Below, piece after piece: positions 26,234 through 42,074 of a stretch of DNA of 64,000 bases (its first letter is position 1; each line of letters opens with the position of its first letter). Source of the stretch: Hylemonella sp. (GTDB taxonomy: Bacteria > Pseudomonadota > Gammaproteobacteria > Burkholderiales > Burkholderiaceae_C); assembly GCF_027532185.1 (NCBI RefSeq), contig NZ_JAPZSV010000009.1:1-64000 (forward strand), read 5' to 3'. Below the pieces are notes generated by a model. The model was not told where the DNA came from. It made no database searches and saw nothing but the letters and a program-made list of their open reading frames with translations. The position numbers and the translations under genes were made by a program.

Positions 26234-26373
26234 AATGTGAGCTTCATCGGTGGCCGGGCGTCTTGACGGCGTTCTGGCTGCCGCAGGGGGACGGCCCATC
26301 CGAGCGGAGTCAATCCGGTAAGTGAGTGTGGCCTTCCGGGCGGGCCGGAGAAGGCTTTATTGGCGAACGATCC

Positions 26374-26940
26374 ATGATGCAACAGCATATCGAGGCTTAT
26401 ACAAAGAACCTGATCCAGGCATTGAGCCTGGAGGGCATGCGCCAGGTGCCTGTGCTCGGAGCGGCCATGCGCGAGGCCTGGCAGAAAGGAAACGGCATCT
26501 ACATCTGCGGCAATGGCGGCAGCGCAGGCAATGCCGTCCACCTGGCGAATGATTTTCTGTACGGTGTCGGGCGCAAAAAAGGCATAGGCATGCGCGTCGA
26601 GGCGTTGAGCGCCAACCCGGCGGTGCTGACCTGCCTGGCCAACGATATCGGGTACGACCTGGTCTATGCCGAACAGCTTCGAGTGAAAGCGAACCCCGGG
26701 GATGTCCTGATCGTCTTCTCCGGCAGCGGGAACTCCCCCAACGTCGTCAAGGCGATCGAGATGGGCAACACGCTGGGCATGAAGACGTTTGCTGTGCTCG
26801 GCTATTCGGGGGGCAAATGCAAGGAGGTTGCGCAGCACCCCATCCATTTCGCCGTTGATGACATGCAGATTGCTGAGGATCTTCAACTCATTGTTGGCCA
26901 TATGTGCATGCAATGGCTCTGCGCGAATCCGGACGACTGA
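26374..26940 (+). CDS. SIS-domain phosphoheptose isomerase-like protein (GmhA family)
   Basis: A 188-residue SIS-domain isomerase. The phosphate-binding loop ICGNGGSAGNAVHLANDF and SGSGNSPNVVKAIE are clear; the C-terminal AEDLQLIVGHMCMQWL has the Glu/His pair used for zinc in GmhA. GmhA makes D-glycero-D-manno-heptose 7-phosphate from sedoheptulose 7-phosphate. Here the loop reads AGN in place of the common AAD, so the natural substrate may differ. First gene of the sporadic sugar block. The 140-bp gap upstream has no gene. ATG 26374 or 26377. Confidence 0.88.
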   Translation: MMQQHIEAYTKNLIQALSLEGMRQVPVLGAAMREAWQKGNGIYICGNGGSAGNAVHLANDFLYGVGRKKGIGMRVEALSANPAVLTCLANDIGYDLVYAEQLRVKANPGDVLIVFSGSGNSPNVVKAIEMGNTLGMKTFAVLGYSGGKCKEVAQHPIHFAVDDMQIAEDLQLIVGHMCMQWLCANPDD

Positions 26941-27012
26941 CCAACGACGATGCCTTCCTTCTGTTCGTCGGTGCGGGGGTGTCCGCCCTGACCGATGAGC
27001 GAAACAAGTCTT

Positions 27013-28005
27013 ATGAGCAAACGATTTCTCGTCATCGGAAGCAACTCGTTCTCGGGTGCGTGTTTTGTCGACCACCTGCTGGGGCGCGACTGCGAGGTGC
27101 TGGGTGCAAGCCGATCTGCCGAACCTCACGACGTCTTTCTTCCGTACAAGTGGGGTGCCAAGCGGGGTCATTTCTCTTTCCGCCAGATTGACATCAACCA
27201 CCAGCTTGACGAGCTGCTGGGCTGGGTCGAGGAGCTAAAGCCTGAATACGTGGTGAATTTCGCTGCGCAGGGCATGGTTGCCCAAAGCTGGTTGACGCCC
27301 GAGCACTGGTACCAGACCAATGTCGTCGGCCAGGTCAAGCTGCACGATCGGCTGCGCAAGCTGCCTTTCCTCAAGCGCTACGTTCACGTCACCACGCCCG
27401 AGGCCTATGGCAGCACCGAGGGCTGGATCAAGGAGAGCTTCCACTTCGCTCCGAGCACTCCCTATGCCGTGTCCCGCGCAGCGTGCGATCTGCACCTGAT
27501 GAGTTTTTTCAAGGCATACAAGTTTCCGGTCTGCTTCACCCGTGCGGCCAACGTCTACGGCCCGGGTCAGCAGCTGTACCGGGTCATCCCTCGTGCCATG
27601 CTTTACGCCCGCCTGGGCAAGAAGATGCAGCTGCATGGGGGTGGGCATTCCATTCGATCCTTCATCCACATGGACGATGTGGCCGACGCGACCTACCGGA
27701 TTGCCATCGATGGCGTCGCCGGCGACAGCTACCACATTTCGACGCGTGACACGGTGTCGATTCGGGCGCTGGTCGAGAAGATCGCCGATTTGACGCAAAC
27801 GCCGTTCAAGGATCTCGCCGAAGTTTCCGAGGATCGCCTCGGCAAGGACCAGGCCTATCTGCTCGAAAGCAGCAAGATTCGCCAGGATCTCGGCTGGTCG
27901 GATCGGGTGAGCCTGGACGACGGCCTCAAGGAGACGCTGGCGTGGGTGGACGCGAACCTCGAAGTCCTGAAGACACTGCCTGCTGACTACATTCACAAAC
28001 CCTGA
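27013..28005 (+). CDS. NAD-dependent epimerase/dehydratase with altered catalytic Lys
   Basis: A 330-residue extended SDR. NAD motif VIGSNSFSG at about 9-15, VTTPEAYGSTEG, and YAVSRAACDLH, where the usual YxxxK reads YxxxR. The rest (FTRAANVYGPGQQLYRVIPRAM, HGGGHSIRSFIHMDDVAD) is normal for a dTDP/GDP-sugar dehydratase-like enzyme. Start 27013 gives MSKRFLVIGS; an ATG at 26995 is possible and neither has a strong ribosome site. It acts on a nucleotide sugar in the sporadic pathway; the exact step is unknown. Confidence 0.85.
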   Translation: MSKRFLVIGSNSFSGACFVDHLLGRDCEVLGASRSAEPHDVFLPYKWGAKRGHFSFRQIDINHQLDELLGWVEELKPEYVVNFAAQGMVAQSWLTPEHWYQTNVVGQVKLHDRLRKLPFLKRYVHVTTPEAYGSTEGWIKESFHFAPSTPYAVSRAACDLHLMSFFKAYKFPVCFTRAANVYGPGQQLYRVIPRAMLYARLGKKMQLHGGGHSIRSFIHMDDVADATYRIAIDGVAGDSYHISTRDTVSIRALVEKIADLTQTPFKDLAEVSEDRLGKDQAYLLESSKIRQDLGWSDRVSLDDGLKETLAWVDANLEVLKTLPADYIHKP

Positions 28006-28013
28006 GACATCCC

Positions 28014-28958
28014 ATGAATATCCTCATTACTGGCGGTTGCGGCTTCGTCGGCACCGTACTCACGGCGCAACTCCTGCAGGACGGCCACCAGATCACGGTG
28101 GTCGATACGCAGTGGTTCGGCAATCACCTGAAGCCGCATCCCCGTCTGACGGTGCTGAAGCAGGATACGCGCGACGTCAACAGCATCCCGCTCAAGGGCG
28201 TCGACACCATCATCCATCTGGCGAACATTGCCAACGACCCTGGCGTGGAGATGAACCCCACGCTGTCGTGGGAGGTCAATGTGCTGGCCACCCAGCAGCT
28301 GGCCGACCGTGCCGTGCGGGCGGGCGTCAAGCAGTTCATCTTTGCGAGTTCCGGCAGCGTGTATGGCGTCAAGGACGACCCGCAGGTCACCGAGGACCTA
28401 GAGTTGGTGCCCATCAGCGCCTACAACAAGACCAAGATGGTCGCCGAGCGCGTTCTCTTGAGCTACACGGACGCCATGCAGATTCATTGCATCCGGCCGG
28501 CAACAGTGTGCGGGTACTCGCCGCGCATGCGCCTGGACGTCAGCGTCAACATGCTCACCATGCAGGCTCTCAAGAATGGCAAGATGACGGTGTTCGGCGG
28601 CGATCAGACCCGGCCCAACATCCACATCAACGACATGGTCGGTGTGTACCGCCATTTCCTGGCCAAACCTGAACTGGCTTCCGGTTGCTACAACGCCGGT
28701 TTCGAGAATATCTCCATCCTCGATATCGCCAAGAAAGTGGCGTCCAAGGTGTCCGCTGAGATCGTTGTTTCCGTCTCCAACGACCCCCGCTCCTACCGGC
28801 AGAATTCCGACAAGCTGCTGGCCACGGGTTTCGTGCAGACCGCCACGGTCTCGGACGCCATCGACGACGTGATCGCGAAGTTCAAGTCCGGTGAACTGGT
28901 GGAAAACGACCAGTGCTACACCGTACGCTGGATGAAACACCTGAACCTGCAGGCTTGA
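28014..28958 (+). CDS. NAD-dependent epimerase/dehydratase
   Basis: A 314-residue extended SDR. NAD motif GGCGFVG at about 7-13, FASSGSVYG, and the catalytic pair in ISAYNKTKMVAE (YxxxK intact). GGDQTRPNIHINDMV is the usual substrate-domain signature. The C-terminal tail (LVENDQCYTVRWMKHLNLQA) is longer than in GalE. Follows the previous SDR by 8 bp. Likely a 4- or 5-epimerase or 4,6-dehydratase acting on a nucleotide sugar. Confidence 0.87.
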   Translation: MNILITGGCGFVGTVLTAQLLQDGHQITVVDTQWFGNHLKPHPRLTVLKQDTRDVNSIPLKGVDTIIHLANIANDPGVEMNPTLSWEVNVLATQQLADRAVRAGVKQFIFASSGSVYGVKDDPQVTEDLELVPISAYNKTKMVAERVLLSYTDAMQIHCIRPATVCGYSPRMRLDVSVNMLTMQALKNGKMTVFGGDQTRPNIHINDMVGVYRHFLAKPELASGCYNAGFENISILDIAKKVASKVSAEIVVSVSNDPRSYRQNSDKLLATGFVQTATVSDAIDDVIAKFKSGELVENDQCYTVRWMKHLNLQA

Positions 28959-28971
28959 TGACGGCTGAGCC

Positions 28972-29778
28972 ATGACCACTTCTGTACAACTGGCTGCGCA
29001 ATTCCGTGCCAAGGCGGTGGAGATGTCCCATGCCGCCGAAGCGGCGCACCTGGCCTCTGCGCTCTCGTGCATCGACATCGTCGCGGCTCTGTATCACTCC
29101 GTGCTTCGACTGGACTCGAAACGGCCCAAGTGGGAAGACCGCGACCGTTTCATCCTCAGCAAGGGGCATGCTGCCACCGCGCTGTATGCGGCCCTGGCGT
29201 ACAAGGGTTTCATCAGCGAGGCTGACCTGAAGACGTACGGGAAGGTGGGCTCCCTGCTCGAAGAGCATCCCACCCCAAGGCTGCCCGGCGTCGAAGCCGC
29301 GACGGGATCGTTGGGGCACGGCCTGCCCTGCGGTTGTGGCATGGCGCTGGCCAGCCGGATCAAGGGGCAGGACTATCGCAGCTTCGTACTGATGAGTGAC
29401 GGCGAATGCAACGAGGGTTCCGTCTGGGAAGCGGCATTGTTTGCTGCGGCCAACCGGCTGGGCAGCCTCTGCGCCTTCGTCGACTTCAACAAGTGGCAGG
29501 CCACGGGCCGAAGCAGGGAGGTGCTGGCCCTGGACCCGCTGGTCGAGAAGTTCAGAAGCTTTGGCTGGCAGGTGCACGAGATCGACGGCCACGATCACCA
29601 GCAAATCCTCGCCGCGGTTCAGGGTGTCTCGGGCGCCAACGAGAAGCCGACCATGGTGGTCGCGCATACGGTCAAGGGCAAGGGGGTTTCCTTCATGGAG
29701 GACGACAACAACTGGCACTACCGGATTCCCACGGCAGACGAAGTGAAGAAGGCTAAGTTGGAGCTCGGCGTGTCATGA
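28972..29778 (+). CDS. Transketolase, N-terminal subunit (split transketolase)
   Basis: A 268-residue ThDP-pyrophosphate-binding half of a two-chain transketolase. The ThDP/metal motif is seen in LMSDGECNEGSVWEAALFAAANRLG...VDFNKWQATG. SKGHAATALYAALAYKGF and GSLGHGLPCGCGMALASR are further signatures. It overlaps the C-terminal subunit by ATGA, so the two are coupled. Housekeeping transketolase is a single ~660-residue chain; split pairs inside glycan loci probably transfer a two-carbon ketol unit to a specialised sugar. Confidence 0.93.
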   Translation: MTTSVQLAAQFRAKAVEMSHAAEAAHLASALSCIDIVAALYHSVLRLDSKRPKWEDRDRFILSKGHAATALYAALAYKGFISEADLKTYGKVGSLLEEHPTPRLPGVEAATGSLGHGLPCGCGMALASRIKGQDYRSFVLMSDGECNEGSVWEAALFAAANRLGSLCAFVDFNKWQATGRSREVLALDPLVEKFRSFGWQVHEIDGHDHQQILAAVQGVSGANEKPTMVVAHTVKGKGVSFMEDDNNWHYRIPTADEVKKAKLELGVS

Positions 29779-30695
29779 GAAACGCATTCGCAAAGGCGGT
29801 CACCGAACTGGGGGACCAGTACCCGGACCTGGTCATGATGGCCGGGGATATCGGGAACCGTCTCTTTGACAAGTTCAAGGAAAAACATCCGACGCGCTTC
29901 TACAACTGCGGTGTGGCCGAGGCCAATATGACGGGCGTCGCCTCCGGTCTGGCGGCTTCGGGCCTGCGGCCCATCACCTACACCATCACCCCATTCAATA
30001 CCGTGCGTTGTCTGGAGCAGATCCGGCTGGATGTCTGCTATCCGGATCTGCCGGTCATCGTGGTGGGCACGGGGGCCGGGCTCTCGTACGCAGGCCTGGG
30101 GGCCACGCATCACTCGATGGAAGACATTGCGATCCTCCGCACTCTGCCCAATATGCACGTGGTCTGCCCTGCCGACTCGGTGGAGGTGCGCCTGGCGGTG
30201 AAGGATGCGCTGCGGTTGGGGCGTCCCACCTACATCCGGCTCGGGAAGAAAGGTGAACCGATCGTCCACCAGTCCGATCCCGTGTTCGAGATCGGGCGCG
30301 GTATCGTGATGCGCGAGGGCTCCGATGTGGCGATCCTCAGCGTTGGAACGATGCTGGACCCCGCCCTGAAAAGTGCCGACCGGTTGCAGCAGGCAGGTGT
30401 GTCGACCAAGGTCATCAGCCTGCACACGGTCAAACCCCTGGACGATCAACTGCTCGGCGCTCTCTTCGCCGAGCAGAAGCTGGTCGTCGTCTTGGAGGAG
30501 CACGGACTCACTGGCGGCGCGGGTAGTGCTGTTCTAGAGTGGGGCAACGCCAGACGCATGCCCCTGGACAAGCTGCTGTGCATCGGCGCCCCGGACCGCT
30601 TCCTCTCGGCCTGCGGCGATCAGGACCAGGCACGCGCCCTGTACGGCCTGGTGCCGGAGAAGATTTGCGAGCGCATTCTCGACCGCCTGAAGTGA
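29775..30695 (+). CDS. Transketolase, C-terminal subunit (split transketolase)
   Basis: A 306-residue pyrimidine-binding half. The catalytic Glu that activates ThDP lies in FYNCGVAEANMTGVASGLAASG. GLSYAGLGATHHSMEDIAILR and the C-terminal domain (about 185-306, ILSVGTMLDPALK and EEHGLTGGAGSAV) are as in transketolase/DXS family proteins. It pairs with the previous subunit to form an alpha2-beta2 enzyme. Donor and acceptor sugars are unknown; it could also supply sedoheptulose 7-phosphate to the GmhA-like enzyme. Confidence 0.93.
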   Translation: MRNAFAKAVTELGDQYPDLVMMAGDIGNRLFDKFKEKHPTRFYNCGVAEANMTGVASGLAASGLRPITYTITPFNTVRCLEQIRLDVCYPDLPVIVVGTGAGLSYAGLGATHHSMEDIAILRTLPNMHVVCPADSVEVRLAVKDALRLGRPTYIRLGKKGEPIVHQSDPVFEIGRGIVMREGSDVAILSVGTMLDPALKSADRLQQAGVSTKVISLHTVKPLDDQLLGALFAEQKLVVVLEEHGLTGGAGSAVLEWGNARRMPLDKLLCIGAPDRFLSACGDQDQARALYGLVPEKICERILDRLK

Positions 30696-30699
30696 GCTT

Positions 30700-31299
30700 A
30701 TGCGCCTGGGGTTCGACTTCGACAACACACTGATCAGCTACGACCGGCTGTTTCGTCGCGTCGCCCTGGACAAGGCGCTGATTCCCGAGACGACCCCGCC
30801 TCAGAAGAATGCCGTGCGCGACTACCTGCGGCAGCAGGGCATCGAGGATGAGTGGACGCGCATGCAGGGTGAGGTCTATGGCGGCCGAATCCTCGAGGCG
30901 GAGCCGTATCCCGGGATGCAGGCCACCTTGCAGGCGCTGAAGGCCAAGCAGATCCCCATGTGCATCGTGAGCCACAAGACGCGTACCCCCTATCTGGGTG
31001 AGCCCTGGGACCTCCATGCCGCGGCCCGGGGCTGGCTTAGGCAGCAGGGCTTCTTCGATGCGCACGGGCTGGGCTGGTCGGAGGACCAGATCTTCTTTGA
31101 GCTGACCAAGGAGGCCAAGGTCGCGCGCATCCTCGCGCTGGGCTGCACTCATTACGTGGACGATCTCCCGGAGATCCTGGAGATGCTCCCTGACAGCGTA
31201 GAAAAGATACTGTTCGATCCAGGTCAAGCCCATGGCGCAGCCACCTCCTGGAAGCGGCTGACCGCCTGGGGCGATCTGCCCGCTCTTCTGGCGTTGTGA
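30700..31299 (+). CDS. HAD-superfamily phosphatase
   Basis: A 199-residue haloacid dehalogenase-like hydrolase. The nucleophile motif FDFDNT gives D6 and D8; IVSHKT supplies the motif II Ser/Thr and a following basic residue; HYVDDLPEIL near residue 150 has the acidic metal pair. In heptose pathways GmhB removes the 7-phosphate; this protein may fill that role for the sporadic sugar, but sequence similarity to GmhB itself is not evident. The stop shares its A with the ATG of the next gene. Confidence 0.85.
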   Translation: MRLGFDFDNTLISYDRLFRRVALDKALIPETTPPQKNAVRDYLRQQGIEDEWTRMQGEVYGGRILEAEPYPGMQATLQALKAKQIPMCIVSHKTRTPYLGEPWDLHAAARGWLRQQGFFDAHGLGWSEDQIFFELTKEAKVARILALGCTHYVDDLPEILEMLPDSVEKILFDPGQAHGAATSWKRLTAWGDLPALLAL

Positions 31300-32300
31300 T
31301 GGCAACCCCCGCGGTCGAGCCGCTGGAGCTGTTCTGCCGCCGCCATGGCGTCACGGGTCCTTTCGAGCTGCAGCCCATCCGGGCTGGCCGCAACAGCCAG
31401 GTGTCCCTGCTGCACAACCGGGATGGCCGCTGGGTCCTGAAACACTACTACCAGCCGCCCGGCGGTGACCGGCGCGACCGCCTGGGCGTGGAGTACGGCT
31501 TTCTCGAGTTCCTGAAACAGGCCGGTGTGACGGGTGTTCCGGTGCCCCTGGGCATGGACCGGGCATCCAACCTGGCTTTGTACTCGTACCTGCCGGGTCG
31601 GCGGCCCGAGGTGATCCATTCCTGGCACATCAGCCAGGCCGCGGGCTTCATCCTCCAGATCAACCGCAGCCGTGCTACGCCGCAGGCTGCGCTGTTGCCG
31701 CCGGCATCCGACGCATGTCTGGGGTGGCAGGCGCATCTGGATCTTACCGAGTCGCGCATTGCACGTTTGCTTTCGGTGGATCCGGGCACCGGTGTGGCGC
31801 GTGAGGCGCATGACTTCGTAACTTCCCGGCTGAGTCCGCTATGGCAGAAAGTCCAAATAGAATTGGCGGCCAGGCCAGGAAGGGCCCCGCTGCAGCCCGA
31901 GGACCGGATTCTTTCGCCGTCAGATTTCGGGTTTCACAATACGCTGGAGCATGAGGCGCGCCTGTCATTCGTCGATTTTGAGTATGCAGGCTGGGACGAT
32001 CCGGCAAAGCTGATCTGCGACTTCATGTGCCAGCCAGAGCTTCCCATCACAGGAGCGCAGGGGGCGCAGTTCATGAGGGAGCTGTTGCAGGGGCTGCCGG
32101 GATCTGAAGAGGTGGAGCAGCGAGTCCAGGCGCTCCTGCCGGTACACCGCCTGAAATGGTGCTGCATCCTGTTGAATGAATTCAGGATGGAGGACAGGAA
32201 AAGGCGTGAACATGCCGGGCTGGCCTCGGACGGCTTGCTGGCCACTCAGCTTGGCAAGGCAAAATGGTATTTCGACAAGCATCTCGCCGCTTGGAGTTAG
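31299..32300 (+). CDS. Aminoglycoside phosphotransferase-fold kinase
   Basis: A 333-residue small-molecule kinase of the APH/choline-kinase fold. The Brenner-type motif appears as LSPSDFGFHNTL (Asp and Asn retained, first His replaced by Ser), and the metal-binding motif as FVDFEYAGWDDPAKL. ATP site: VSLLHNRDGRWVLKHYY. In this context a sugar or alcohol kinase for the sporadic pathway is more likely than antibiotic resistance. The ATG at 31299 overlaps the HAD stop. Confidence 0.8.
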   Translation: MATPAVEPLELFCRRHGVTGPFELQPIRAGRNSQVSLLHNRDGRWVLKHYYQPPGGDRRDRLGVEYGFLEFLKQAGVTGVPVPLGMDRASNLALYSYLPGRRPEVIHSWHISQAAGFILQINRSRATPQAALLPPASDACLGWQAHLDLTESRIARLLSVDPGTGVAREAHDFVTSRLSPLWQKVQIELAARPGRAPLQPEDRILSPSDFGFHNTLEHEARLSFVDFEYAGWDDPAKLICDFMCQPELPITGAQGAQFMRELLQGLPGSEEVEQRVQALLPVHRLKWCCILLNEFRMEDRKRREHAGLASDGLLATQLGKAKWYFDKHLAAWS

Positions 32301-32307
32301 GGAAACA

Positions 32308-32979
32308 ATGGCTTACATCGACTTTCTTTCGGCAATCCACAAGAGCACGCAGCGCGACTACCTGGCGCGCGTCAACGACCCCGAGTTCCCTAAAGCCAAG
32401 GCGGCCGCGCTGGCTAAACAGTGGGGTTACGACTACTGGGACGGCGACCGGCGCATCAACTACGGGGGCTATCGCTACATGCCTGGACGATGGGCTCCGG
32501 TGGGCAAGGCCATGATCGAGCACTATGGCATCAAGCCTGGCGACAAGATCCTGGACGTCGGTTGCGGCAAGGGCTTCCAGCTCTACGAGTTGACCCAGCT
32601 CCGCCCGGGTGTGGAGGTGTACGGCATCGACGTTTCGGCCTATGCGATTGATAACGCCAAGGAAGAGGTCAAGGGACGGCTTCAGGTCGGCAGTGCGACG
32701 TCGCTGCCCTATGCTGACAACGAGTTCGATTTCGTCTTCTCGATCAATACCCTGCACAACCTCCATTGCTACGATCTGGACAAGGCGTTGCGGGAGATCG
32801 AGCGGGTCGGCAAGAAGAACAAGTACATCTGCGTCGAGTCCTATCGCACCGAAACGGAGAAGGCCAACCTCCTGTACTGGCAGGTGACCTGCGAGGCCTT
32901 CAATACGCCCGAGGAATGGGCCTGGTGGTTCAAGCAGACCGGTTACACCGGCGACCATTCCTTCATCTACTTCGAATAA
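32308..32979 (+). CDS. Class I SAM-dependent methyltransferase
   Basis: A 223-residue methyltransferase. Motif I is ILDVGCGKGFQLYE (about 73-86), followed by YGIDVSAYAI and FVFSINTLHNLHCYDLDKALREIERV. The ATG at 32308 follows AGGGA, and a longer open frame overlaps the kinase gene. Probably methylates the sugar at the nucleotide stage or the growing glycan. Eight bp separate it from the dehydrogenase. Acceptor unknown. Confidence 0.88.
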   Translation: MAYIDFLSAIHKSTQRDYLARVNDPEFPKAKAAALAKQWGYDYWDGDRRINYGGYRYMPGRWAPVGKAMIEHYGIKPGDKILDVGCGKGFQLYELTQLRPGVEVYGIDVSAYAIDNAKEEVKGRLQVGSATSLPYADNEFDFVFSINTLHNLHCYDLDKALREIERVGKKNKYICVESYRTETEKANLLYWQVTCEAFNTPEEWAWWFKQTGYTGDHSFIYFE

Positions 32980-32987
32980 GAGCTGCC

Positions 32988-34058
32988 ATGTCCAAAATGC
33001 CAAAAACCATGCGGGCGGCGGTCCTGACCGAACTCAAGGCGCCTTTGCGCATTGTCGAACTCACCATGCCCGAGTCCCTCGGCGTCGGGCAGGTGCTGGT
33101 GAAGGTCCATTTCAGCGGCATCTGCGGCTCGCAGCTGGGCGAGATCGATGGAGCCAAGGGGGAGGACAAATACTTGCCGCACCTGCTGGGTCATGAGGCT
33201 TCGGGGACCGTCCTTGAGGTCGGCCCCGGCGTGCGTCACGTCAAGGTCGGTGACAAGGTCGTCCTGCACTGGCGCAAGAGCGTCGGCATCGAGTCGCCCA
33301 CCCCAGTCTACCGCTGGGGCGATCGCCAGGTCAACGCCGGCTGGGTCACCACCTTCAACGAATACGCCATCGTTTCCGAGAACCGCCTGACGACAATTCC
33401 TGCCGACAGCGACCTGGAAGTGGCCGCCCTGTTCGGTTGCGCGGTGACCACGGGATTCGGTGTGGTGGAGAACAACGCCAAGGTTCGCATCGGCGAATCG
33501 GTCGTGGTCTTCGGCGCGGGTGGTATCGGCCTGAACATCGTGCAGGCGGCCGCCCTGGTCTCGGCCTATCCCATCGTTGCCGTGGATTTGCATGATGGAC
33601 GCCTCGCGCTGGCCAGGCAGATGGGTGCGACGCACCTCATCAACAGCAGCAAGGTCGACGCACGTCAGGCTATCCTGGAGATCGTCGGGCGTGAAGGGGT
33701 GGACGCCTTCATCGACAACACAGGGCGTCCGCCCATCATCGAGATGGGATACCAGATCACCAAGCCCCAGGGCCGGGTCACCCTGGTCGGGGTGCCGCGT
33801 CAGGGCAGCACCATCAATATCTATTCCCTCCCCCTGCATTTCGGCAAGGGACTCAGCGGATCGCACGGCGGCGAGGCTGTGCCACAGACCGACATCCCCC
33901 GTTATCAGAAGCTGTATGGATCGGGCCGTATCAAGCTGCGCGAACTGATCACCAACCGCTACACGCTGGATCAGGTTAATGAGGCCATCGCGGGCATGCG
34001 CGATGGATCGACGGCAGGCCGTTGTCTGATCAATCTGGACGCGATGACGTCTTCCTGA
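32988..34058 (+). CDS. Zinc-binding dehydrogenase (medium-chain alcohol dehydrogenase family)
   Basis: A 356-residue MDR enzyme. Catalytic zinc ligands are seen as Cys in SGICGSQ (about residue 39), His-Glu in GHEASG, and Cys in LFGCAVTTG; the four-Cys structural zinc lobe is absent. The nucleotide-binding motif VFGAGGIGLNIVQAAAL is intact. Substrates of related enzymes are sugar alcohols or threonine. Within this cluster it probably oxidises or reduces a sugar intermediate. Start ATG 32988. Confidence 0.88.
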   Translation: MSKMPKTMRAAVLTELKAPLRIVELTMPESLGVGQVLVKVHFSGICGSQLGEIDGAKGEDKYLPHLLGHEASGTVLEVGPGVRHVKVGDKVVLHWRKSVGIESPTPVYRWGDRQVNAGWVTTFNEYAIVSENRLTTIPADSDLEVAALFGCAVTTGFGVVENNAKVRIGESVVVFGAGGIGLNIVQAAALVSAYPIVAVDLHDGRLALARQMGATHLINSSKVDARQAILEIVGREGVDAFIDNTGRPPIIEMGYQITKPQGRVTLVGVPRQGSTINIYSLPLHFGKGLSGSHGGEAVPQTDIPRYQKLYGSGRIKLRELITNRYTLDQVNEAIAGMRDGSTAGRCLINLDAMTSS

Positions 34059-34071
34059 GGGAGCGACAACC

Positions 34072-35298: not shown

Positions 35299-35834
35299 TG
35301 GATGCTTTCCGGAAAGTCAGCGATGAGGTGTTCGTTGCGGACACATCCATTGTGCAGCTCGGTACGGAGCACATTGCCTTTCTGAAGACGCAGGCTCGGA
35401 CCAGCAGCCGCAAGCGTTCCCGGATCTGCGCCCACCGCTCCAGCGAAGATGCCCTGCACGAGATGCTGATCGCTATTTCGGCCGACAGCTACATCCACCC
35501 GCACAAGCACACCCGCAAAGTCGAGTCCTTTCACATCGTTGAGGGGATGGTGGATGTGGTGGTTTTTGACGATGCCGGGACGATTGTTGACGTCGTCGAA
35601 TTGGGCGATATCACGACGGGGCGCAATTTCTACTACCGGCTCTCCGACAGCATGTTCCACACGCTGCTCATCTACAACGATTTTCTTGTCGTCCATGAAG
35701 TGACCAACGGTCCGTTCATGGCGAACGAAACGATACTTGCCCCGTTTGCGCCGCCTGAAAGCCAGGCCGGCGACGCGCGCGCATACATCGCCAGTATCCG
35801 CCGTGCCGTCGAGGCGCGCGGTCGTCACAACTAG
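35295..35834 (+). CDS. WbuC-family cupin metalloprotein
   Basis: A 179-residue cupin of the WbuC family, recurrent in O-antigen loci with FucNAc but of unknown biochemical function. HPHKHTRKVESFHIVEGMVDVVVFDD supplies the metal-binding His/Glu cluster of the beta-barrel. RICAHRSSEDALHEMLIAI and DSMFHTLLIYND are family segments. It lies here inside the sporadic block and not beside the fnl genes, so its usual association with FucNAc is relaxed. ATG at 35295 or 35298. Confidence 0.88.
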   Translation: MMDAFRKVSDEVFVADTSIVQLGTEHIAFLKTQARTSSRKRSRICAHRSSEDALHEMLIAISADSYIHPHKHTRKVESFHIVEGMVDVVVFDDAGTIVDVVELGDITTGRNFYYRLSDSMFHTLLIYNDFLVVHEVTNGPFMANETILAPFAPPESQAGDARAYIASIRRAVEARGRHN

Positions 35835-35847
35835 GAGAGAAATACAC

Positions 35848-36585
35848 ATGACGCATTCCATCGTTTTCGGCGGCAGCAAGGGCCTTGGACGGGTGCTGGC
35901 GAGGCAGTTGGCAGGACGCGGGGACGCCGTGTCGGTCGTGAGCCGCAGCGAGCCGCCGCAGGCCGAGCGAGCCGAAGGCGCTAGCTACTTTCAGGCTGAT
36001 ATCGCCGATGCACAGGCTACCCGCGCTGCGCTGGATGCTGCCATCCAGAAGAACGGCGCTCCCAGCTATCTGATCTTCTGTCAGCGCTATCGCGGCAAGG
36101 AAGATGCATGGGCCGGTGAGATTGATGTCAGTCTGACCGCATCCAAGCGGGTGGTGGAATACCTGCAGGACAAGTTCGCCGTGGACGGCGATTGCGGCAT
36201 CGCCTTCGTGAGCTCGGTGTTCGGTGACCGGATCGGCGAAGGGCAGGACATTAGCTACCATATTGGTAAGGCAGGCATGGGTCACATGGCGCGTTTCTAC
36301 GCGGTGAACCTGGGGCGCAAGGGCATCCGGGCGAATACGGTTACGCCTTTCACCTTCCTGAAGGAGGAGTCGAAAAGCTTCTACCTCAACAACAAGGAAT
36401 TGTTGGGCCTGTATGAGGAGATCATCCCTCTGGGCCGGATGGCGACATCCGAAGACAGCGCGAACGTGGTCGCCTTCCTGTGCAGTCCGGCTGCTGCATT
36501 CGTGAACGGCCAGAATATCTATGTGGATGGCGGGCTGTCTCTTGTATGGCCGGAAACGCTGGCCCGCAAGCTGAAATCAATCTAA
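35848..36585 (+). CDS. Short-chain dehydrogenase/reductase
   Basis: A 245-residue classical SDR. NAD(P) motif FGGSKGLGRV (5-14), a Ser in FVSSVFGDRIG, and catalytic YxxxK in ISYHIGKAGM. The loop normally carrying NNAG reads LIFCQRYRG, which is unusual. C-terminal NGQNIYVDGGLSLVW is normal. Start 35848 follows AGGAG. Probably a keto-sugar reductase of the pathway. Confidence 0.88.
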   Translation: MTHSIVFGGSKGLGRVLARQLAGRGDAVSVVSRSEPPQAERAEGASYFQADIADAQATRAALDAAIQKNGAPSYLIFCQRYRGKEDAWAGEIDVSLTASKRVVEYLQDKFAVDGDCGIAFVSSVFGDRIGEGQDISYHIGKAGMGHMARFYAVNLGRKGIRANTVTPFTFLKEESKSFYLNNKELLGLYEEIIPLGRMATSEDSANVVAFLCSPAAAFVNGQNIYVDGGLSLVWPETLARKLKSI

Positions 36586-36603
36586 CAATATCGACTGGAC
36601 CGA

Positions 36604-37851
36604 ATGAACTCCTCCCTGACGCGTCGCGACAGCTGCCGCCTGTGCGGCAGCAAGCATCTTGAACTCGCTCTGCCGATCGCCGCATCGCCCATTGCCGATG
36701 CCTATGTGCCGCGCGAACGCCTGAACGAAGAACAGGATCTCTACCCCCTGGATCTCTATCTGTGCACCGAGTGCGGGCACGTGCAGAACATCGATGTGGT
36801 GAACCCGGAGATCCTGTTCCGCGACTACATCTACGTGACCTCCAGCTCGATGGGACTGGTCGAGCACTATCGGCGCTATGCGGACGACGTGGTATCGCAG
36901 TTCAGCGTCGAGCCTGGCGCATTGGCCCTGGAGATCGGCAGCAACGATGGTTCACTGCTGAACTTCTTCAAGACCAAGGGTCTCAAGGTCCTCGGGGTCG
37001 ATCCAGCACGCCGCATTGCCGAGGAGGCCACAGCCCGGGGCGTACCGACGCTGCCGGAGTTCTTCGGCTCCAAGCTGGCCGAGAGTCTGCGCAAGGAGCA
37101 CGGGCCTGCGACGATTGTCGCTGCCAACAACGTCTTCGCGCACGCGGACAACCTGGCCGACATAGTGCAAGGCATCCATACCATGCTGGCTGATGACGGG
37201 GTGTTCATTTTCGAGGTCTCCTATCTGCCGGACATAGTCGACCGCTTCCTGTTCGACACGGTTTATCACGAACACGTCTCGTACCACTCCATCATTCCCT
37301 TGGCGAAATTCTTCGAGAAGCTGGGCATGCAGCTTTTCGATGTGCAGCGCATCAGCTCCAAAGGGGGGTCCATCCGCGGGTTCGCGCAACGCGCCGCGCA
37401 GGGTCGGCACCCCGTTACCTCCAGGGTGACAGAGCTGATTGCCGAGGAAAATCGCCGTGGCTTCAACCAGTCCGCGATCTATCGTGCCTACGATGCCGCG
37501 ATTTCGGCGCGCAAGGCGGCTGTTGCGAAAGTAGTGGACGAGGCACGGGCCCGGGGCAAGACTGTGGCCGGCTACGGCGCCTCAACGACCGTCACCACCT
37601 TGATGTGGCACTTTGATCTGGCTCAAAAGCTCGATTTTCTGGTCGATGACAATCCGCTCAAGCACGGCCTCTTCGCTCCCAAGTGCCATCTCCCGGTCCT
37701 TCCGTCCGAAGAGCTGTATACGCGGCGGCCCGACTATGTGCTTATCCTCGCGTGGAACTTTGCCGAGCCGATCATGAAACGGCATCAGCGCTACATCGCG
37801 GAGGGCGGCACCTTCGTGATTCCCCTACCGGAACTCAAGGTCGTTTCATGA
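36604..37851 (+). CDS. Sugar C-methyltransferase (SAM-dependent, three-domain type)
   Basis: A 415-residue C-methyltransferase resembling enzymes that place branch methyls on dTDP-keto-sugars in antibiotic deoxysugar pathways. Zinc domain CRLCGSKH and LCTECGHVQ; SAM motif I ALEIGSNDGSLLNFF is intact; VYHEHVSYHSI is the usual active-site His-Glu-His stretch; and the C-terminal domain starts GKTVAGYGAST. Compare with the gene at 34072, which has the same plan but a degenerate motif I. Branch methylation of a keto-sugar is the likely reaction. Confidence 0.88.
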   Translation: MNSSLTRRDSCRLCGSKHLELALPIAASPIADAYVPRERLNEEQDLYPLDLYLCTECGHVQNIDVVNPEILFRDYIYVTSSSMGLVEHYRRYADDVVSQFSVEPGALALEIGSNDGSLLNFFKTKGLKVLGVDPARRIAEEATARGVPTLPEFFGSKLAESLRKEHGPATIVAANNVFAHADNLADIVQGIHTMLADDGVFIFEVSYLPDIVDRFLFDTVYHEHVSYHSIIPLAKFFEKLGMQLFDVQRISSKGGSIRGFAQRAAQGRHPVTSRVTELIAEENRRGFNQSAIYRAYDAAISARKAAVAKVVDEARARGKTVAGYGASTTVTTLMWHFDLAQKLDFLVDDNPLKHGLFAPKCHLPVLPSEELYTRRPDYVLILAWNFAEPIMKRHQRYIAEGGTFVIPLPELKVVS

Positions 37852-37898
37852 AGCCGGCATGCGCGATGCATGGCGTTTAATCCAAGTGTGAACTGAAA

Positions 37899-39350
37899 AT
37901 GTTTTCGGCCAAAACGGTACTTGTCACAGGAAACTTCAATGTCTTGCATGCGGGGCATCTGCGCCTGTTCAAGTATGCAAAGGAGTGCGGCGGCCGGTTT
38001 CTCGTCGGGGTGAATTCCGATCGACTTGCGGGCGAGGGCTCGTACGTGCACGAAAGTCTGCGGCTGGAATGCGTGCAAAACAGCAACTGGGTCGACGAAG
38101 CTTTTCTCGTCGATGAGCCGATCGAATCGGTGATTGCCCGGCTGCGTCCGGACATCGTCGTCAAAGGCAAGGAGCACGAGACCCGTTTCAATCCCGAGCT
38201 GGCGGCGCTCGGCCAGTACGGCGGCAAGTTGCTCTTCAGTTCCGGTGAGACTGTGTTCTCGTCCGTTGATCTGATCCGCAAAAGCTTCTATGAGCCCGCA
38301 ATTCGCGGCATCGAGCTGCCTCACGAGTATTTGGCCCGGCATCACATCTCGCCTGGCAGGCTTGCCGAGATCGTCGGCCGCTTTCAGGAGCTGAAGATTT
38401 GCGTTGTGGGTGATCTCATCGTCGACGAGTACATCACGTGTCAGCCTCTGGGCATGTCCCAGGAGGACCCGACCATCGTGGTGACTCCCATCGATTCGAC
38501 CAGCTTCCTGGGCGGAGCAGCCATTGTGGCTGCGCACGCAGCCGGGTTGGGGGCTCATGTGGACTTCGTCTCAGTGGCCGGTGTCGATGCCAGTCGCGAG
38601 TTCGCGGCAAACCATCTGGCCAAGGCCGGGGTGAACGCGCATCTGCTGCCCGACGACAGCCGTCCGACCACGTTGAAGCAGCGGTATCGTAGCCAGGGCA
38701 AGACCTTGCTGCGGGTCAGTCATCTTCACCAAGGCGCCATCAGCCTGGGCCTGCAGGAGCAGATGCTGGCGCTGATCGAGGCCTCGCTCAAGACCGCGAA
38801 CGTACTGGTGTTCTCGGACTTCAACTACGGGTGCCTTCCGCAGGCGATGGTGGAGAAGGTCATCGCTCTGGCCAAGGAGCGTGGAGTCATGCTGGCGGCG
38901 GACAGCCAATCGTCCTCGCAGATGGGTGACATCAGCCGTTTCCAGGCGATGGACCTGATTTGCCCTACGGAGCGGGAGGCGCGGATCGCTACACGCAACC
39001 GTGAGGATGGGCTGGTCGTCCTGACGGAGCAACTGCGCGCGCAGGCGAAGGCGAAGAACATCCTCCTGAAACTCGGCGAAGAAGGACTGCTGATCCATAC
39101 CGGGAGCAGCGGCGCCGGCAATTGGCTCACCGATCGCGTCGGAGCGCTGAATTCATCTCCCAAGGACGTGGCCGGTGCCGGCGATTCACTGCTGATCGCC
39201 AGCGCGCTGGCCCTGGCCAGCGGCGCTTCGATCTGGGAGGCGTCCGCACTCGGTTCCATTGCGGCGGCCGTGCAGGTGGGGCGCGTGGGAAACACGCCTC
39301 TGCTTTCAAAGGAACTTCTGAAAGAACTGGATGGATCTGGGGATCAATGA
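37899..39350 (+). CDS. Nucleotidyltransferase-PfkB kinase fusion (HldE-like, reversed domain order)
   Basis: A 483-residue bifunctional protein. Residues about 1-135 are a cytidylyltransferase/adenylyltransferase domain with GNFNVLHAGHLRLF (H17 and H20 of HxGH) and VVKGKEHE. Residues about 160-480 are a PfkB/ribokinase-like kinase with GGAAIVAAHAAGLG, and DVAGAGDS at 423-430 (catalytic D429). HldE (ADP-heptose synthesis) has kinase first and nucleotidyltransferase second; here the order is opposite. Likely phosphorylates and activates a heptose-like sugar. The last 20 bases overlap the next gene. The 47-bp gap before it holds no gene. Confidence 0.88.
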   Translation: MFSAKTVLVTGNFNVLHAGHLRLFKYAKECGGRFLVGVNSDRLAGEGSYVHESLRLECVQNSNWVDEAFLVDEPIESVIARLRPDIVVKGKEHETRFNPELAALGQYGGKLLFSSGETVFSSVDLIRKSFYEPAIRGIELPHEYLARHHISPGRLAEIVGRFQELKICVVGDLIVDEYITCQPLGMSQEDPTIVVTPIDSTSFLGGAAIVAAHAAGLGAHVDFVSVAGVDASREFAANHLAKAGVNAHLLPDDSRPTTLKQRYRSQGKTLLRVSHLHQGAISLGLQEQMLALIEASLKTANVLVFSDFNYGCLPQAMVEKVIALAKERGVMLAADSQSSSQMGDISRFQAMDLICPTEREARIATRNREDGLVVLTEQLRAQAKAKNILLKLGEEGLLIHTGSSGAGNWLTDRVGALNSSPKDVAGAGDSLLIASALALASGASIWEASALGSIAAAVQVGRVGNTPLLSKELLKELDGSGDQ

Positions 39351-40089
39351 CCGTGTCGCCCTGGTCACTGGGGCGAGCAAGAACATCGGGCGCGCCATCG
39401 CCAAGGCGCTTGCCAGGGAAGGGGCTCGTCTCATACTGGTCAGCAGGTCCCTGGAAAACCTTAGAGATGTGGTCACCGAAATCGGCGATGCGCCCGGCCG
39501 GCATCTTTGCGTGAACCTGGACTTGCAGCAGCCTGAGAGCGTACAGCGCCTGAAGGAGCGGCTGAGCGGTGATTTTGCTGTGCCCGACATCATTGTGCAC
39601 AACCTCGGCGGATCCCTGGGTGTGACCGACGCCTTTGCCAGCTCCGAGGACTGGGCCCGTGTCTGGCACTTCAACGTGGGTATCGCGCACGAACTCAACC
39701 GGGTGTTCATTCCCGGCATGGTGTCCCGAAAGTGGGGGCGCATCGTGCACCTTTCGACCTTGTCGACGCAGACGTATGATGGATATGCGCCGTATGTATC
39801 GGCGAAGTGCGCCCTGGACGGTTACGTGAAGGGGATGAGCCGTCTGCTGTCCCGGGACAACGTCATCATGAATGCGGTGGCTCCTGGCCTGATCGGTCTC
39901 GAAGGGCGGTATTTCAAGCGTCTGGAGAAGGAGAATCCGGCCCAGCTTGAGCAGTACTACGACAACCATCTGCCGATCCGGCGGATGGGTGCGGCAGATG
40001 AAATGGCGGTGATCGCCGCCTTCTTGTGTTCCGAGCACGCGGCCTTCATGCCTGGTGCCATCGTGCGTGCGGACGGCGGTGGCCACTGA
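39331..40089 (+). CDS. Short-chain dehydrogenase/reductase
   Basis: A 252-residue classical SDR. NAD(P) motif TGASKNIGRAI (about 13-23), VHNLGG in place of NNAG, Ser in VHLSTLSTQTYDG, and YxxxK in APYVSAKCALDG. MNAVAPGLIGLEGRY and PGAIVRADGGGH are standard C-terminal signatures. Its start lies 20 bases inside the previous gene. Likely another keto-group reductase for the sporadic sugar. Confidence 0.9.
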   Translation: MDLGINDRVALVTGASKNIGRAIAKALAREGARLILVSRSLENLRDVVTEIGDAPGRHLCVNLDLQQPESVQRLKERLSGDFAVPDIIVHNLGGSLGVTDAFASSEDWARVWHFNVGIAHELNRVFIPGMVSRKWGRIVHLSTLSTQTYDGYAPYVSAKCALDGYVKGMSRLLSRDNVIMNAVAPGLIGLEGRYFKRLEKENPAQLEQYYDNHLPIRRMGAADEMAVIAAFLCSEHAAFMPGAIVRADGGGH

Positions 40090-40159
40090 TGAAACTGCCC
40101 GAACGTGGCCGTTGAAGTTCCTTGACTCCGGGCAAAAGATCTAACCAGCTGACAACATC

Positions 40160-40930
40160 ATGAGCAACTTGATTTCTCTCGAAAAAGGCTTCGCTGTCGT
40201 GGATGCGGACGAGCGGAGCTATCTTGAAAACCTGCGCAAAGAAATATTCGGCCTGACCCGTGACATCTTCAAGCTCCCGGACTCCGAGCCGGAGGCAGGC
40301 CTGAACAACTTCCATCAGACGACCCAGGGCATGTCGCTGGGGGAGCTGAACAAGCTGCGGATCGAGCTCATCCAGCGCATCACCGCAGAATGCAACGTCC
40401 GGGAAGTGGTCTTCAAGGCGTTTGAGAAGAACCTACGCCATCTTTTGGGGCCGGATATCCTGGCGCAGAAAGGTACGAATCTGGTCTTGCAGCCTCCGGG
40501 AGACCCCAATCCGTCCGAACTGCATCGTGATGCGCCTGCCAATTCGCCGTACGAACTGGTGGTGTGGGTGCCCATGGTGAACTGCTACGGCACCAAGGCC
40601 ATGTACATACTGGATGTCGACAACACCGAGAAAGCCTTTGCCCACCTGGACGCCAACCCCAGCGATTGGGACGGCTTCGAGAAGTTCGCGAAGTCGCTGT
40701 CCGTGACGCCCCCAGTTACCTTCGGTCAGGCGCTGATCTTCTACACGGGCTGCTTGCACGGATCCGAGATCAACGGCGAAAACGAAACGCGGGTGAGCCT
40801 GAACATTCGGTACAAGAACCTGTTCTCGCCGTCCGGCCTCAAGAATCAGCTGCAGTTTTTCAGTCCCCTGCGGATTTCGGATGTGGCGCGCCTGGGCAGC
40901 TTGCTGGAGGCGCGGGAGCTGCAGCGATGA
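40160..40930 (+). CDS. Sporadic carbohydrate cluster 2OG-Fe(II) oxygenase
   Basis: A 256-residue non-haem iron dioxygenase. Iron-binding HxD is H122-R-D124 in SELHRDAPANS; the distal His is H200 in YTGCLHGSE; and R211 or R217 (TRVSLNIR) would bind 2-oxoglutarate. I recall this family being named as part of sporadic carbohydrate clusters, usually beside the LIC12192-like protein encoded next door (ATGA overlap). Expected to hydroxylate or desaturate a sugar or its conjugate. Substrate unknown. Confidence 0.85.
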   Translation: MSNLISLEKGFAVVDADERSYLENLRKEIFGLTRDIFKLPDSEPEAGLNNFHQTTQGMSLGELNKLRIELIQRITAECNVREVVFKAFEKNLRHLLGPDILAQKGTNLVLQPPGDPNPSELHRDAPANSPYELVVWVPMVNCYGTKAMYILDVDNTEKAFAHLDANPSDWDGFEKFAKSLSVTPPVTFGQALIFYTGCLHGSEINGENETRVSLNIRYKNLFSPSGLKNQLQFFSPLRISDVARLGSLLEARELQR

Positions 40931-41343
40931 AACAGTTCTATTCCTGCATCGACGCCCTGCTGCCGGCGCCGCAGCCCGAGCAGCACGAGGTCTCCAAGAA
41001 AAAGGCGACCAAGGAGGGCGGCCAGATCGTCTTCTACGGCGCAGAGGAATACCGGGTCGTTGACCGACAGCCCTTCATCCTGCCCAAGCTCAAGCGCACG
41101 CCCGGCATCGACGGGGTGGTTTTTTTCTCCATTGACCAGTTCTGCTACGGCGACACGTTCAACCTGAAGTTGCTGGAGGAGATCCTCGCCCTGGGCCTGA
41201 GCGTCCACTTCGCACGCGAAGACATATCGTTCACGAATTTCGGCGAGGTCGCAGCGAACTTCATCACGCTCTCGGCGTATTTCCATGCCTTCAAGCGTAG
41301 CCGGCGTGTGAGCGCGGCAGAGATATTGAGCGTGCTCGCCTGA
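40927..41343 (+). CDS. Sporadic carbohydrate cluster protein, LIC12192-like
   Basis: A 138-residue protein that I recognise as resembling the LIC12192 family (named after a Leptospira interrogans protein) in sporadic carbohydrate clusters; its function is undescribed. The sequence shows an alpha/beta pattern with YSCIDALLPAP at the N-terminus, VFYGAEEYRVV, GVVFFSIDQFCYGD, and LSVHFAREDISFTN. No catalytic motif is obvious. It overlaps the oxygenase stop by ATGA and shares one base with the next start, so the three are translated together. A longer frame back to 40564 is a shadow. Confidence 0.8.
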   Translation: MKQFYSCIDALLPAPQPEQHEVSKKKATKEGGQIVFYGAEEYRVVDRQPFILPKLKRTPGIDGVVFFSIDQFCYGDTFNLKLLEEILALGLSVHFAREDISFTNFGEVAANFITLSAYFHAFKRSRRVSAAEILSVLA

Positions 41344-42074
41344 TGCGTGCCTTGCTGCTTGCCGCCGGTCTGGGTACGCGTCTGCGTCCCATCACGGACC
41401 GGATTCCCAAGTGCCTGGTCGAGATCAACGGGCGGCCCCTGCTGGATTACTGGCTCGAACTGCTGAGCGCCGCTGGGATCGGGCAGGTGCTCGTCAATCT
41501 GCACTATCTGCCGGAAGCGGTCGAGCGCTTTCTTGCGCAATCCCGATACCCGATTGAGATCTCGACGGTCCACGAAGCCTCTCTGCTGGGCACGGCCGGG
41601 ACGGTACTGAAGAACCGTGCGTATTTCCGCCAGGAGCCACTGATGCTGATCCACGCGGACAACCTTTCGTGGTTTGACGTCCGGGCCTTCATGGGCCGGT
41701 ATGAGCAGAGGGCCGCAGGCGTTGAAATCACGATGATGACCTTCCATACGGATGCGCCAGAAACCTGTGGCATCGTGGAGCTTGACGATTCGGGTGTGGT
41801 GCGTGCCTTCCATGAAAAGGTCAAGAATCCGCCCGGTAATCTGGCCAATGGCGCCGTCTACATCCTGTCGCCCCAGGTGGTCGACTTCATCGCCAGCTTG
41901 AACAAGGATGTGGTGGATTTCAGTCTGGACGTTCTTCCGCGTTACATGGGAAGAATCAATACCTACCTCAATAACGTGTACCACCGCGATATCGGGACGG
42001 TACAGAGTTTGACGGCAGCGCAGGCGGAATACCCCTTGGCTCTGGCACGGAGGACGTCCGATGCCCTGCGTTGA
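41343..42074 (+). CDS. Sugar-1-phosphate nucleotidyltransferase (HddC-like)
   Basis: A 243-residue NTP-transferase-fold enzyme. The signature LAAGLGTRLRPITDRIPKCLVEI (motif from residue 6, Lys23) and HADNLSWFDV (metal-binding Asp) are clear. Size and spacing are like HddC and MurU-type guanylyl/uridylyltransferases. In GDP-heptose pathways HddC makes GDP-D-glycero-alpha-D-manno-heptose; here it could form the activated donor of the sporadic sugar. It is the last sugar-enzyme gene before the flippase, 9 bp away. Confidence 0.88.
   Translation: MRALLLAAGLGTRLRPITDRIPKCLVEINGRPLLDYWLELLSAAGIGQVLVNLHYLPEAVERFLAQSRYPIEISTVHEASLLGTAGTVLKNRAYFRQEPLMLIHADNLSWFDVRAFMGRYEQRAAGVEITMMTFHTDAPETCGIVELDDSGVVRAFHEKVKNPPGNLANGAVYILSPQVVDFIASLNKDVVDFSLDVLPRYMGRINTYLNNVYHRDIGTVQSLTAAQAEYPLALARRTSDALR

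Follow-up and report, generated by a model that had tools for sequence, protein, structure and literature searches.

The subject of this study is a run of 18 consecutive genes on the + strand (26374-42074) of a 64,000-nucleotide stretch of DNA from Hylemonella sp. (contig NZ_JAPZSV010000009.1, positions 1 to 64,000), which is called the window. Eleven of these genes are homologous, one for one, to the cluster that is assumed to make bradyrhizose in photosynthetic Bradyrhizobium, and the window probably holds a bradyrhizose-type pathway with extra tailoring. The original prediction, made from the letters alone, had proposed a higher-carbon, possibly two-carbon-branched, activated sugar of a structure that could not be inferred. 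The direction is borne out, as this is a sporadic pathway whose families recur together. The class of the structure can nevertheless be inferred, since 11 of the 18 genes are those of the assumed bradyrhizose cluster. As far as the literature searched shows, four points are new: the identity of the cluster with this operon, its occurrence in many phyla, the residue signature of its transketolase, and the scheme given below for the origin of the carbons.

Bradyrhizose has been described as unique to photosynthetic bradyrhizobia. Its polymer is reported to trigger no plant immunity, and its genes to be unknown save for the assumed operon. Very different bacteria may thus make variants of a sugar so far known from a few plant symbionts. 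Should the assignment be right, there would be eleven enzymes, each with many orthologues, on which the pathway could be tested. Two families that NCBI calls "sporadic" would gain a place near a bradyrhizose-type pathway, and dozens of clusters outside Streptomyces would provide candidates for a natural ketone-accepting transketolase.

Link to the assumed bradyrhizose operon

Bradyrhizose is a ten-carbon bicyclic sugar, and Busset et al. (2016; PMC4743980) assume that an eleven-gene cluster in photosynthetic Bradyrhizobium ORS285 makes it. According to the available passages of that paper, the cluster is known in ORS285, ORS278, BTAi1, and others, and is conserved in all six photosynthetic strains compared. 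Insertions in its gdh gene abolish the O-antigen, which is described as built of bradyrhizose (that of one strain is reported to be a bradyrhizose homopolysaccharide). Because the operon is needed for such an O-antigen, it most simply makes bradyrhizose.

The operon was located by means of the published primers among 242 genomes of one genus, taken as Bradyrhizobium from the primer matches. The two gdh primers of PMC4743980 translate to DAFLPYKW and DMSLRTYF; the stretches aligned with them in the window gene at 26995-28005 read DVFLPYKW and DLHLMSFF. Both primers match without mismatch in one ORS285-like genome (G642), 381 bp end to end; gdh fragments are given as 300-400 bp and rfaL as about 44 kb away (PMC4743980), and the rfaL forward primer is exact in G642, 45.8 kb from the gdh primer site. 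The gdh forward primer has ten further matches with one to three mismatches, one of which (in G503) is a chance match in a cytochrome-like gene.

The ORS285-like operon has eleven genes, as many as PMC4743980 gives, and no gap between them is much longer than 110 bp. Their order is nucleotidyltransferase (NTase)-kinase, HddC-like, SDRe2, GmhA-like, gdh, TktN, TktC, ZnDH, HAD, APH, and MT. The same order is found in five more genomes checked. The next same-strand open reading frames (ORFs) are 527 bp away on one side (no Pfam match) and 685 bp away on the other (a TylF-like methyltransferase). All eleven operon families have a counterpart in the window, at 41-62% identity; the window differs in gene order, in having seven more genes inside the core span, and in belonging to another class of organism. 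The homology of the eleven core genes to the assumed cluster, and with it the identity of the operon, is well supported by these comparisons.

An operon-type methyltransferase (at least 80% identity) is found in 13 of the 242 genomes, where at most 12 candidates per genome were scored, and the photosynthesis gene pufM in 24. Eight genomes carry both, so that the two genes are strongly associated (Fisher p 2.7e-6, with no correction for relatedness). A further 65 genomes have more distant methyltransferase relatives (42-61%), and many genomes of this genus hold a further relative at about 51-54%. Five loci read among these 65 (L026-L030) hold a divergent cluster of a second type, in which two DegT aminotransferases and an oxygenase-LIC pair are present; this hints at an amino variant of the sugar.

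It is very unlikely that the Bradyrhizobium operon makes an adaptor or core sugar instead of bradyrhizose and that the window product is some other sugar. The possible polar effects of the gdh insertions, conceded by the authors, and the loss of a methylated monosaccharide in the gdh mutants would suit such a role (PMC4743980). Eleven genes, however, would fit a ten-carbon sugar better, and the conservation of the cluster in all six photosynthetic strains also speaks against it.

Core genes and their distribution

Relatives were collected by scanning genome contigs with an alignment of the core methyltransferase, and the best 80 of at least 372 relatives (57-82% identity) were kept. Together with six whole-genome stretches, one IMG/VR contig, and one plasmid they make 88 mapped loci, and the profiles used for mapping were derived from these same loci. 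Because many of the contigs are short or truncated, little weight can be given to absences; phylum labels come from record titles, and bins may hold foreign contigs.

The core lies on one strand within 15.7 kb. Nine of its genes are contiguous, and the NTase-kinase and HddC-like genes are set apart by inserted genes. All are on the + strand, and the percentages that follow are identities to the ORS285-like operon copy unless stated otherwise. The first gene (26374-26940, starting at an ATG inside the ORF 26326-26940) encodes a GmhA-like sugar-phosphate isomerase of the SIS type (57%; 74% to locus L047). It is followed by two extended short-chain dehydrogenases/reductases (SDRs). The RmlB-like SDRe1 (26995-28005) is the counterpart of gdh (54%). 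RmlB itself carries the motif T-D-E; in SDRe1 it is T/S-P-E, with P and E in 54/54 sequences. The GalE/HldD-like SDRe2 (28014-28958; 61%) keeps YxxxK in 62/62. The split transketolase is encoded by tktN (28972-29778; PF00456; 62%) and tktC (29775-30695; PF02779/PF02780; 55%). Then come a HAD phosphatase (30700-31299; PF00702; 47%) with D-x-D-N-T in 66/66, an APH-fold kinase (31296-32300; PF01636; 41%) with the catalytic D and N in 69/69, the S-adenosylmethionine (SAM) methyltransferase MT (32308-32979; PF13847; 60%), which served as the marker for relatives, and a zinc-dependent alcohol dehydrogenase, ZnDH (32988-34058; PF08240/PF00107; 44%), with the zinc-site C and H-E in 57/57. The NTase-kinase fusion (37899-39350; 49%) is HldE-like with reversed domain order (CTP_transf PF01467 and PfkB PF00294), and the HddC-like sugar-1-phosphate nucleotidylyltransferase (41343-42074; PF00483; 53%) closes the run. 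Motifs were read in ten families, and the window copies are intact in all ten save for CMT1, whose SAM motif is degenerate.

The enzyme families of the first steps are the same as in the ADP- and GDP-heptose pathways (GmhA, HldE, and HddC). In the window, however, all three proteins fall below the equivalog cut-offs: GmhA scores 110.7 bits against 209.45 (TIGR00441), the NTase-kinase 193.3 against 345 and 54.7 against 181.5 in two HldE models, and HddC 75.9 against 300. The domains of the NTase-kinase are reversed, and a separate HldE kinase domain above its cut-off exists elsewhere in the genome. On these scores and the second kinase, an ordinary heptose pathway is rejected as a full account; the original prediction had likewise counted too many enzymes for one ordinary heptose.

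The gene set is beyond chance, because the same set recurs across many genomes. The 80 loci carry 18 phylum labels, and three are unlabelled. TktN, TktC, HAD, APH, and MT occur together in 53 of them, under 14 phylum labels and one unlabelled. All eleven core families are present in 14/88 loci and at least nine in 37/88. In 54 loci the methyltransferase is flanked by 7 kb or more on either side; among these, TktC is seen in 48, TktN in 47, APH in 45, HAD in 44, SDRe2 in 41, NTase-kinase in 40, ZnDH in 36, SDRe1 in 35, GmhA in 24, and HddC in 14. Thirteen of the 81 methyltransferase-fetched loci show none of TktN, TktC, HAD, and APH.

A tree was built from 71 rows of TktN, TktC, and MT. In it the window groups with Pseudoduganella ginsengisoli as its sister (L047; 78% identity, support 99), and a SAR202 locus comes next. 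Phyla are mixed on this tree, with 24 label changes where 15 would be the least possible. Horizontal transfer is the simplest reading of this and is not proven; paralogy and wrongly binned contigs can add to the mixing. The five-gene HAD-APH-TktN-TktC-MT cassette may be a transferable unit. On a plasmid of Solidesulfovibrio carbinolicus (L117, 12467-16651) it stands beside pseB, pseC, and a gene of the N-acetylneuraminate synthase family, with a second transketolase pair upstream. Two loci titled Prochlorococcus (L081 and L085) hold 10 and 11 of the eleven core genes, and all eleven are in a metagenome-assembled genome titled Bordetella parapertussis (L050), whose species label may be wrong. 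The literature searched, which mostly left out subscription journals, places these genes nowhere outside Bradyrhizobium; it also gave no match for "sporadic carbohydrate cluster", for LIC12192, or for a transketolase in heptose polysaccharide clusters.

Acceptor site of the split transketolase

Among solved structures, both subunits are closest to the split transketolase of Carboxydothermus hydrogenoformans (6YAK for TktN and 6YAJ for TktC). As shown by 73 aligned TktC sequences, which are not independent (five are from one genus) and onto which the E. coli numbering was mapped by alignment, the catalytic residues E411 and H473 are kept in 73/73. The acceptor site is altered. H461 is replaced by Gly in 73/73 and D469 by Leu in 69 and Asn in 4; the window copy has G and L. 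The same genome encodes four other Transket_pyr proteins. Its transketolase reads THDSIGLGEDGPTH and so retains both His and Asp; the Asp is also present in two DXS-like enzymes, while the fourth protein did not align. The Carboxydothermus enzyme (PMC7661550) also differs from the window TktC in keeping His and Asp at the two positions.

In the texts consulted, H461 is linked to phosphate binding, and changes of D469 are said to favour non-hydroxylated or non-polar acceptors. The substitutions in TktC fit, without proving, a ketone or other unusual acceptor. Split transketolases have already been proposed to add hydroxyacetyl to keto sugars (PMC12247030), and a 2025 review states that experimental evidence for a ketone-accepting transketolase is still needed. 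In the parts of PMC12247030 available, the miharamycin and amipurimycin transketolases are split, as in the window. The 13 ketone-acceptor candidates given there are all from streptomycetes, whereas those of the window type lie in polysaccharide-type loci of many phyla. YerE of yersiniose and erwiniose is another thiamine diphosphate (ThDP) enzyme that adds a carbon unit to a keto sugar of lipopolysaccharide, as is proposed for the window, but it belongs to the decarboxylase superfamily, where the window would use a split transketolase (PMC12247030). Family scans of the 18 genes found no other ThDP family, and the ThDP pair matches transketolase models.

The same site bears on a more conventional route. 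An ordinary transketolase acting on an aldehyde would give the phosphate of an octulose or nonulose, and a linear higher aldose would be formed from it by the GmhA-like isomerase and the kinase. The lincosamide octose pathway is a model for such a route. GmhA-like, kinase, HAD, and nucleotidyltransferase proteins are the right enzyme set for it, and the sub-equivalog GmhA- and HldE-like scores look as if the substrate differs from sedoheptulose 7-phosphate. But H461 and D469 are lost in 73/73 sequences, unlike what an ordinary hydroxyaldehyde phosphate acceptor would call for, GmhA is seen in 24/54 well-flanked loci (at a lax threshold) against 48/54 for TktC, and the tertiary alcohol of bradyrhizose is left unexplained. 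We consider this route highly improbable.

Proposed pathway and product

The ring closures of bradyrhizose are reported to run through O4, O5, and O9, from which we deduce that C4 is bonded to C3, C5, C9, and a hydroxyl, i.e., it is a tertiary alcohol. A skeleton of this form would result if a chain of C1 to C7 carried C8 and C9 as a branch at C4 and a bond between C7 and C8 completed the C4-C9 carbocycle. The product class is likely, and the order of the steps is a hypothesis. The GmhA-like protein, the NTase-kinase, the HddC-like protein, and the HAD phosphatase would make an NDP-heptose (C7). The two extended SDRs, i.e., the gdh counterpart and SDRe2, would set a ketone at C4. The split transketolase would then add a two-carbon hydroxyacetyl unit to this ketone, and not to an aldehyde sugar phosphate, giving the tertiary alcohol. 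Oxidation of the C7 primary alcohol to an aldehyde by ZnDH (in relatives by the 2-oxoglutarate (2OG) oxygenase with its LIC partner) would permit an aldol between C7 and the new C8, closing a six-carbon inositol ring. The SAM methyltransferase could supply C10, and the carbon count would be 7+2+1 = 10. The APH/HAD pair may phosphorylate and dephosphorylate some intermediate. The CMT1-WbuC-SDR1-CMT2 proteins, SDR2, and the oxygenase-LIC pair would modify the product further, and a Wzx-type system would export the sugar in a surface polysaccharide.

Several points weigh against this assignment. The link between operon and bradyrhizose is an assumption of the authors, and the gdh insertions are possibly polar (PMC4743980). 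No core enzyme is reported as assayed in the passages available, and C10 as a C-methyl group, with its position, is our own deduction and stated in no text consulted. Five of the 13 carriers of the operon-type methyltransferase are without pufM, and 16 of the 24 pufM genomes are without the methyltransferase. The TylF-like gene 685 bp beyond the ORS285-like operon might belong to the pathway. In TktC the phosphate-site residues R358 (71/73) and R520 (73/73) are kept, so phosphate may still bind. Finally, TktC is unseen in 6/54 well-flanked methyltransferase loci, and the plasmid locus holds, of the core, only HAD, APH, TktN, TktC, and MT, so the methyltransferase may serve other sugars.

It is also conceivable that the core makes only a two-carbon-branched, uncyclised heptose, that ring closure in Bradyrhizobium is separate, and that most other clusters, the window included, make open branched sugars. 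Family scans find no obvious cyclase among the core enzymes, and relatives vary in ZnDH, SDRe1, HddC, and DegT content, so their products probably differ. We regard this as unlikely, given that all eleven Bradyrhizobium genes are in the window; moreover, the six ORFs flanking the ORS285-like operon, which encode a TylF-like methyltransferase, GSCFA and MBOAT proteins, and three proteins without a Pfam match, include no obvious cyclase, though three of them are of unknown function.

A wider proposal can also be made. Many bacterial phyla (Prochlorococcus, Planctomycetota, Verrucomicrobiota, Chlamydiota, and others) may make surface sugars that are inositol-fused and two-carbon-branched, a large class not recognised so far, of which bradyrhizose would be the first to have been found. 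In the course of evolution the split transketolase would have come to use a ketone as acceptor for hydroxyacetyl; the aldehyde needed to close the ring would come from ZnDH or, in a second branch, from the 2OG oxygenase with LIC12192; and the form in the window would be additionally C-methylated and oxidised. We put this forward tentatively, at somewhat less than an even chance.

Extra modules in the window

The original prediction took the 18 genes as a single self-contained set. They do form one run of rightward, mostly abutting or overlapping genes in the ORF listing. In relatives, however, they come apart into the eleven-gene core, a CMT1-WbuC-SDR1-CMT2 module, and an SDR2-2OG-LIC block. 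The order in the window equals that of L047 with the SDR2-2OG-LIC block inserted between the NTase-kinase and HddC-like genes.

The first module consists of CMT1 (34072-35298, +; PF08421/PF08484), a WbuC-family cupin (35295-35834, +; TIGR04366 132.7 bits, cut-off 42), the classical SDR1 (35848-36585, +; PF13561), which is associated with CMT2, and CMT2 (36604-37851, +; PF08484 167.6 bits), a C-methyltransferase with an intact SAM motif (G-S-N-D-G in 18/18). CMT1 is found in 18/88 loci, CMT2 in 17/88, and both in 12/88; WbuC is present in 17 of the 18 CMT1 loci, and the four genes tend to travel together. In most of the 19 CMT1 members read (L041 is an exception) a GLSYKDDT-like stretch replaces the GSNDG SAM motif, and the zinc CxxC and W-E-E/D-H are kept. 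As the SAM motif of most members is not usable, CMT1 may be something other than a methyltransferase, possibly a non-methylating enzyme family.

This module may instead serve a sugar of its own. Two or more unrelated sugars would then be made, the core one and a separate C-methylated one. Neither CMT1 nor CMT2 is in the ORS285-like operon, each occurs in about a fifth of the loci, as counted above, and in some loci part of the module is encoded on the other strand. On the other hand, the interleaved gene order is almost identical in the window, L047, and L059, where the module stands between ZnDH and NTase-kinase, and this suggests one product. Separate sugars are thus somewhat unlikely, yet a possibility to be taken seriously.

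The inserted block is opened by the classical SDR2 (39331-40089, +; PF13561), also found in L059, L095, and L113. Next is a 2OG-Fe(II) oxygenase (40160-40930, +) of the NCBIfam sporadic carbohydrate cluster family TIGR04324 (184.2 bits, cut-off 150), with H-x-D, H, and R in 18/18. The window copy is divergent, with 30-33% identity to the three relatives compared, and has no solved relative by sequence at E 1. It is followed by a small, divergent LIC12192-like protein (40927-41343, +), which matches TIGR04323 at 19.0 bits (E 0.001), below the cut-off of 55. The RGYI...RP...PQHVQN stretch of its relatives is missing, and it is the exception among 12 aligned LIC proteins, of which the 11 others match TIGR04323 at 0.001. 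Profile searches for LIC gave nothing better than E 0.9 among solved structures and nothing better than E 0.3 in Pfam. The label is supported because the gene directly follows the oxygenase; 2OG and LIC co-occur in 17/17 loci. Every enzyme class named in the original prediction is backed by the family scans, with this label as the weak one. Its reference to sporadic carbohydrate cluster families holds in that the oxygenase is above the curated cut-off with a weak TIGR04323 match adjoining it, but both families lie outside the core.

In the relatives examined, these two families are found where ZnDH is not seen. ZnDH is present in 58/71 loci without 2OG and 0/17 with 2OG, whereas the window has ZnDH, oxygenase, and LIC protein and is the sole locus seen with both ZnDH and 2OG in comparison with the 88 loci. 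Six of the 17 2OG loci (L026-L031) had been fetched with TIGR04324, and five of these six belong to a single genus; when only the methyltransferase-fetched loci are counted (n=81), the figures are 58/70 against 0/11. On the tree of 71 rows, an independent contrast gives no significant result (4 pairs; median p of the sign test 1). That 2OG-LIC replaces ZnDH is kept as a suggestion, and strict replacement is not upheld. The clearest case is that of L087 and L088 (Oscillatoriales), inside the ZnDH-bearing part of the tree. Oxidation of C7 would suit ZnDH and, equally, a 2OG oxygenase.

Occurrence in relatives and genomic context

The cluster looks imported. A TIGR04324 oxygenase above the cut-off is found in 1/100 relatives (the window's own genome) and in 7/398 genomes of the phylum, own genome included. 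The methyltransferase at E 1e-40 is in 3/100 relatives, one being the window's genome and the others two members of its order, with 43% identity, and in 0/25 other same-genus and 0/34 same-family genomes of that sample. A plasmid or phage origin was considered and rejected. The cluster has no match in E. coli genomes at megablast sensitivity, and the 2OG oxygenase has none in the plasmid collection. The methyltransferase has one near-full-length plasmid match (46.6%, Solidesulfovibrio), seven partial matches below 60% identity in phage records, and a relative on one IMG/VR contig. This contig (L116), classed as viral, has a Bradyrhizobium-like 2OG-LIC cluster and may be a misassigned chromosomal piece.

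The surroundings of the 18 genes form a surface-polysaccharide locus, probably of the Wzx kind. According to family scans, rmlB-, rmlD-, and rmlA-like genes, a ManC-type protein, DegT aminotransferases, and genes resembling CapD and RmlD lie around the cluster, together with a WecB-like epimerase recognised from its ORF alone. Then come a Wzx-like O-unit flippase (42084-43436, +; NF041503 50.1 bits, below the cut-off of 300), glycosyltransferases, a bacterial sugar transferase, and a CapD-like protein of 628 amino acids. The G+C content of the cluster is 59-64%, inside a lower-G+C stretch from about 22 to 48 kb; outside this stretch it is about 63-70%.

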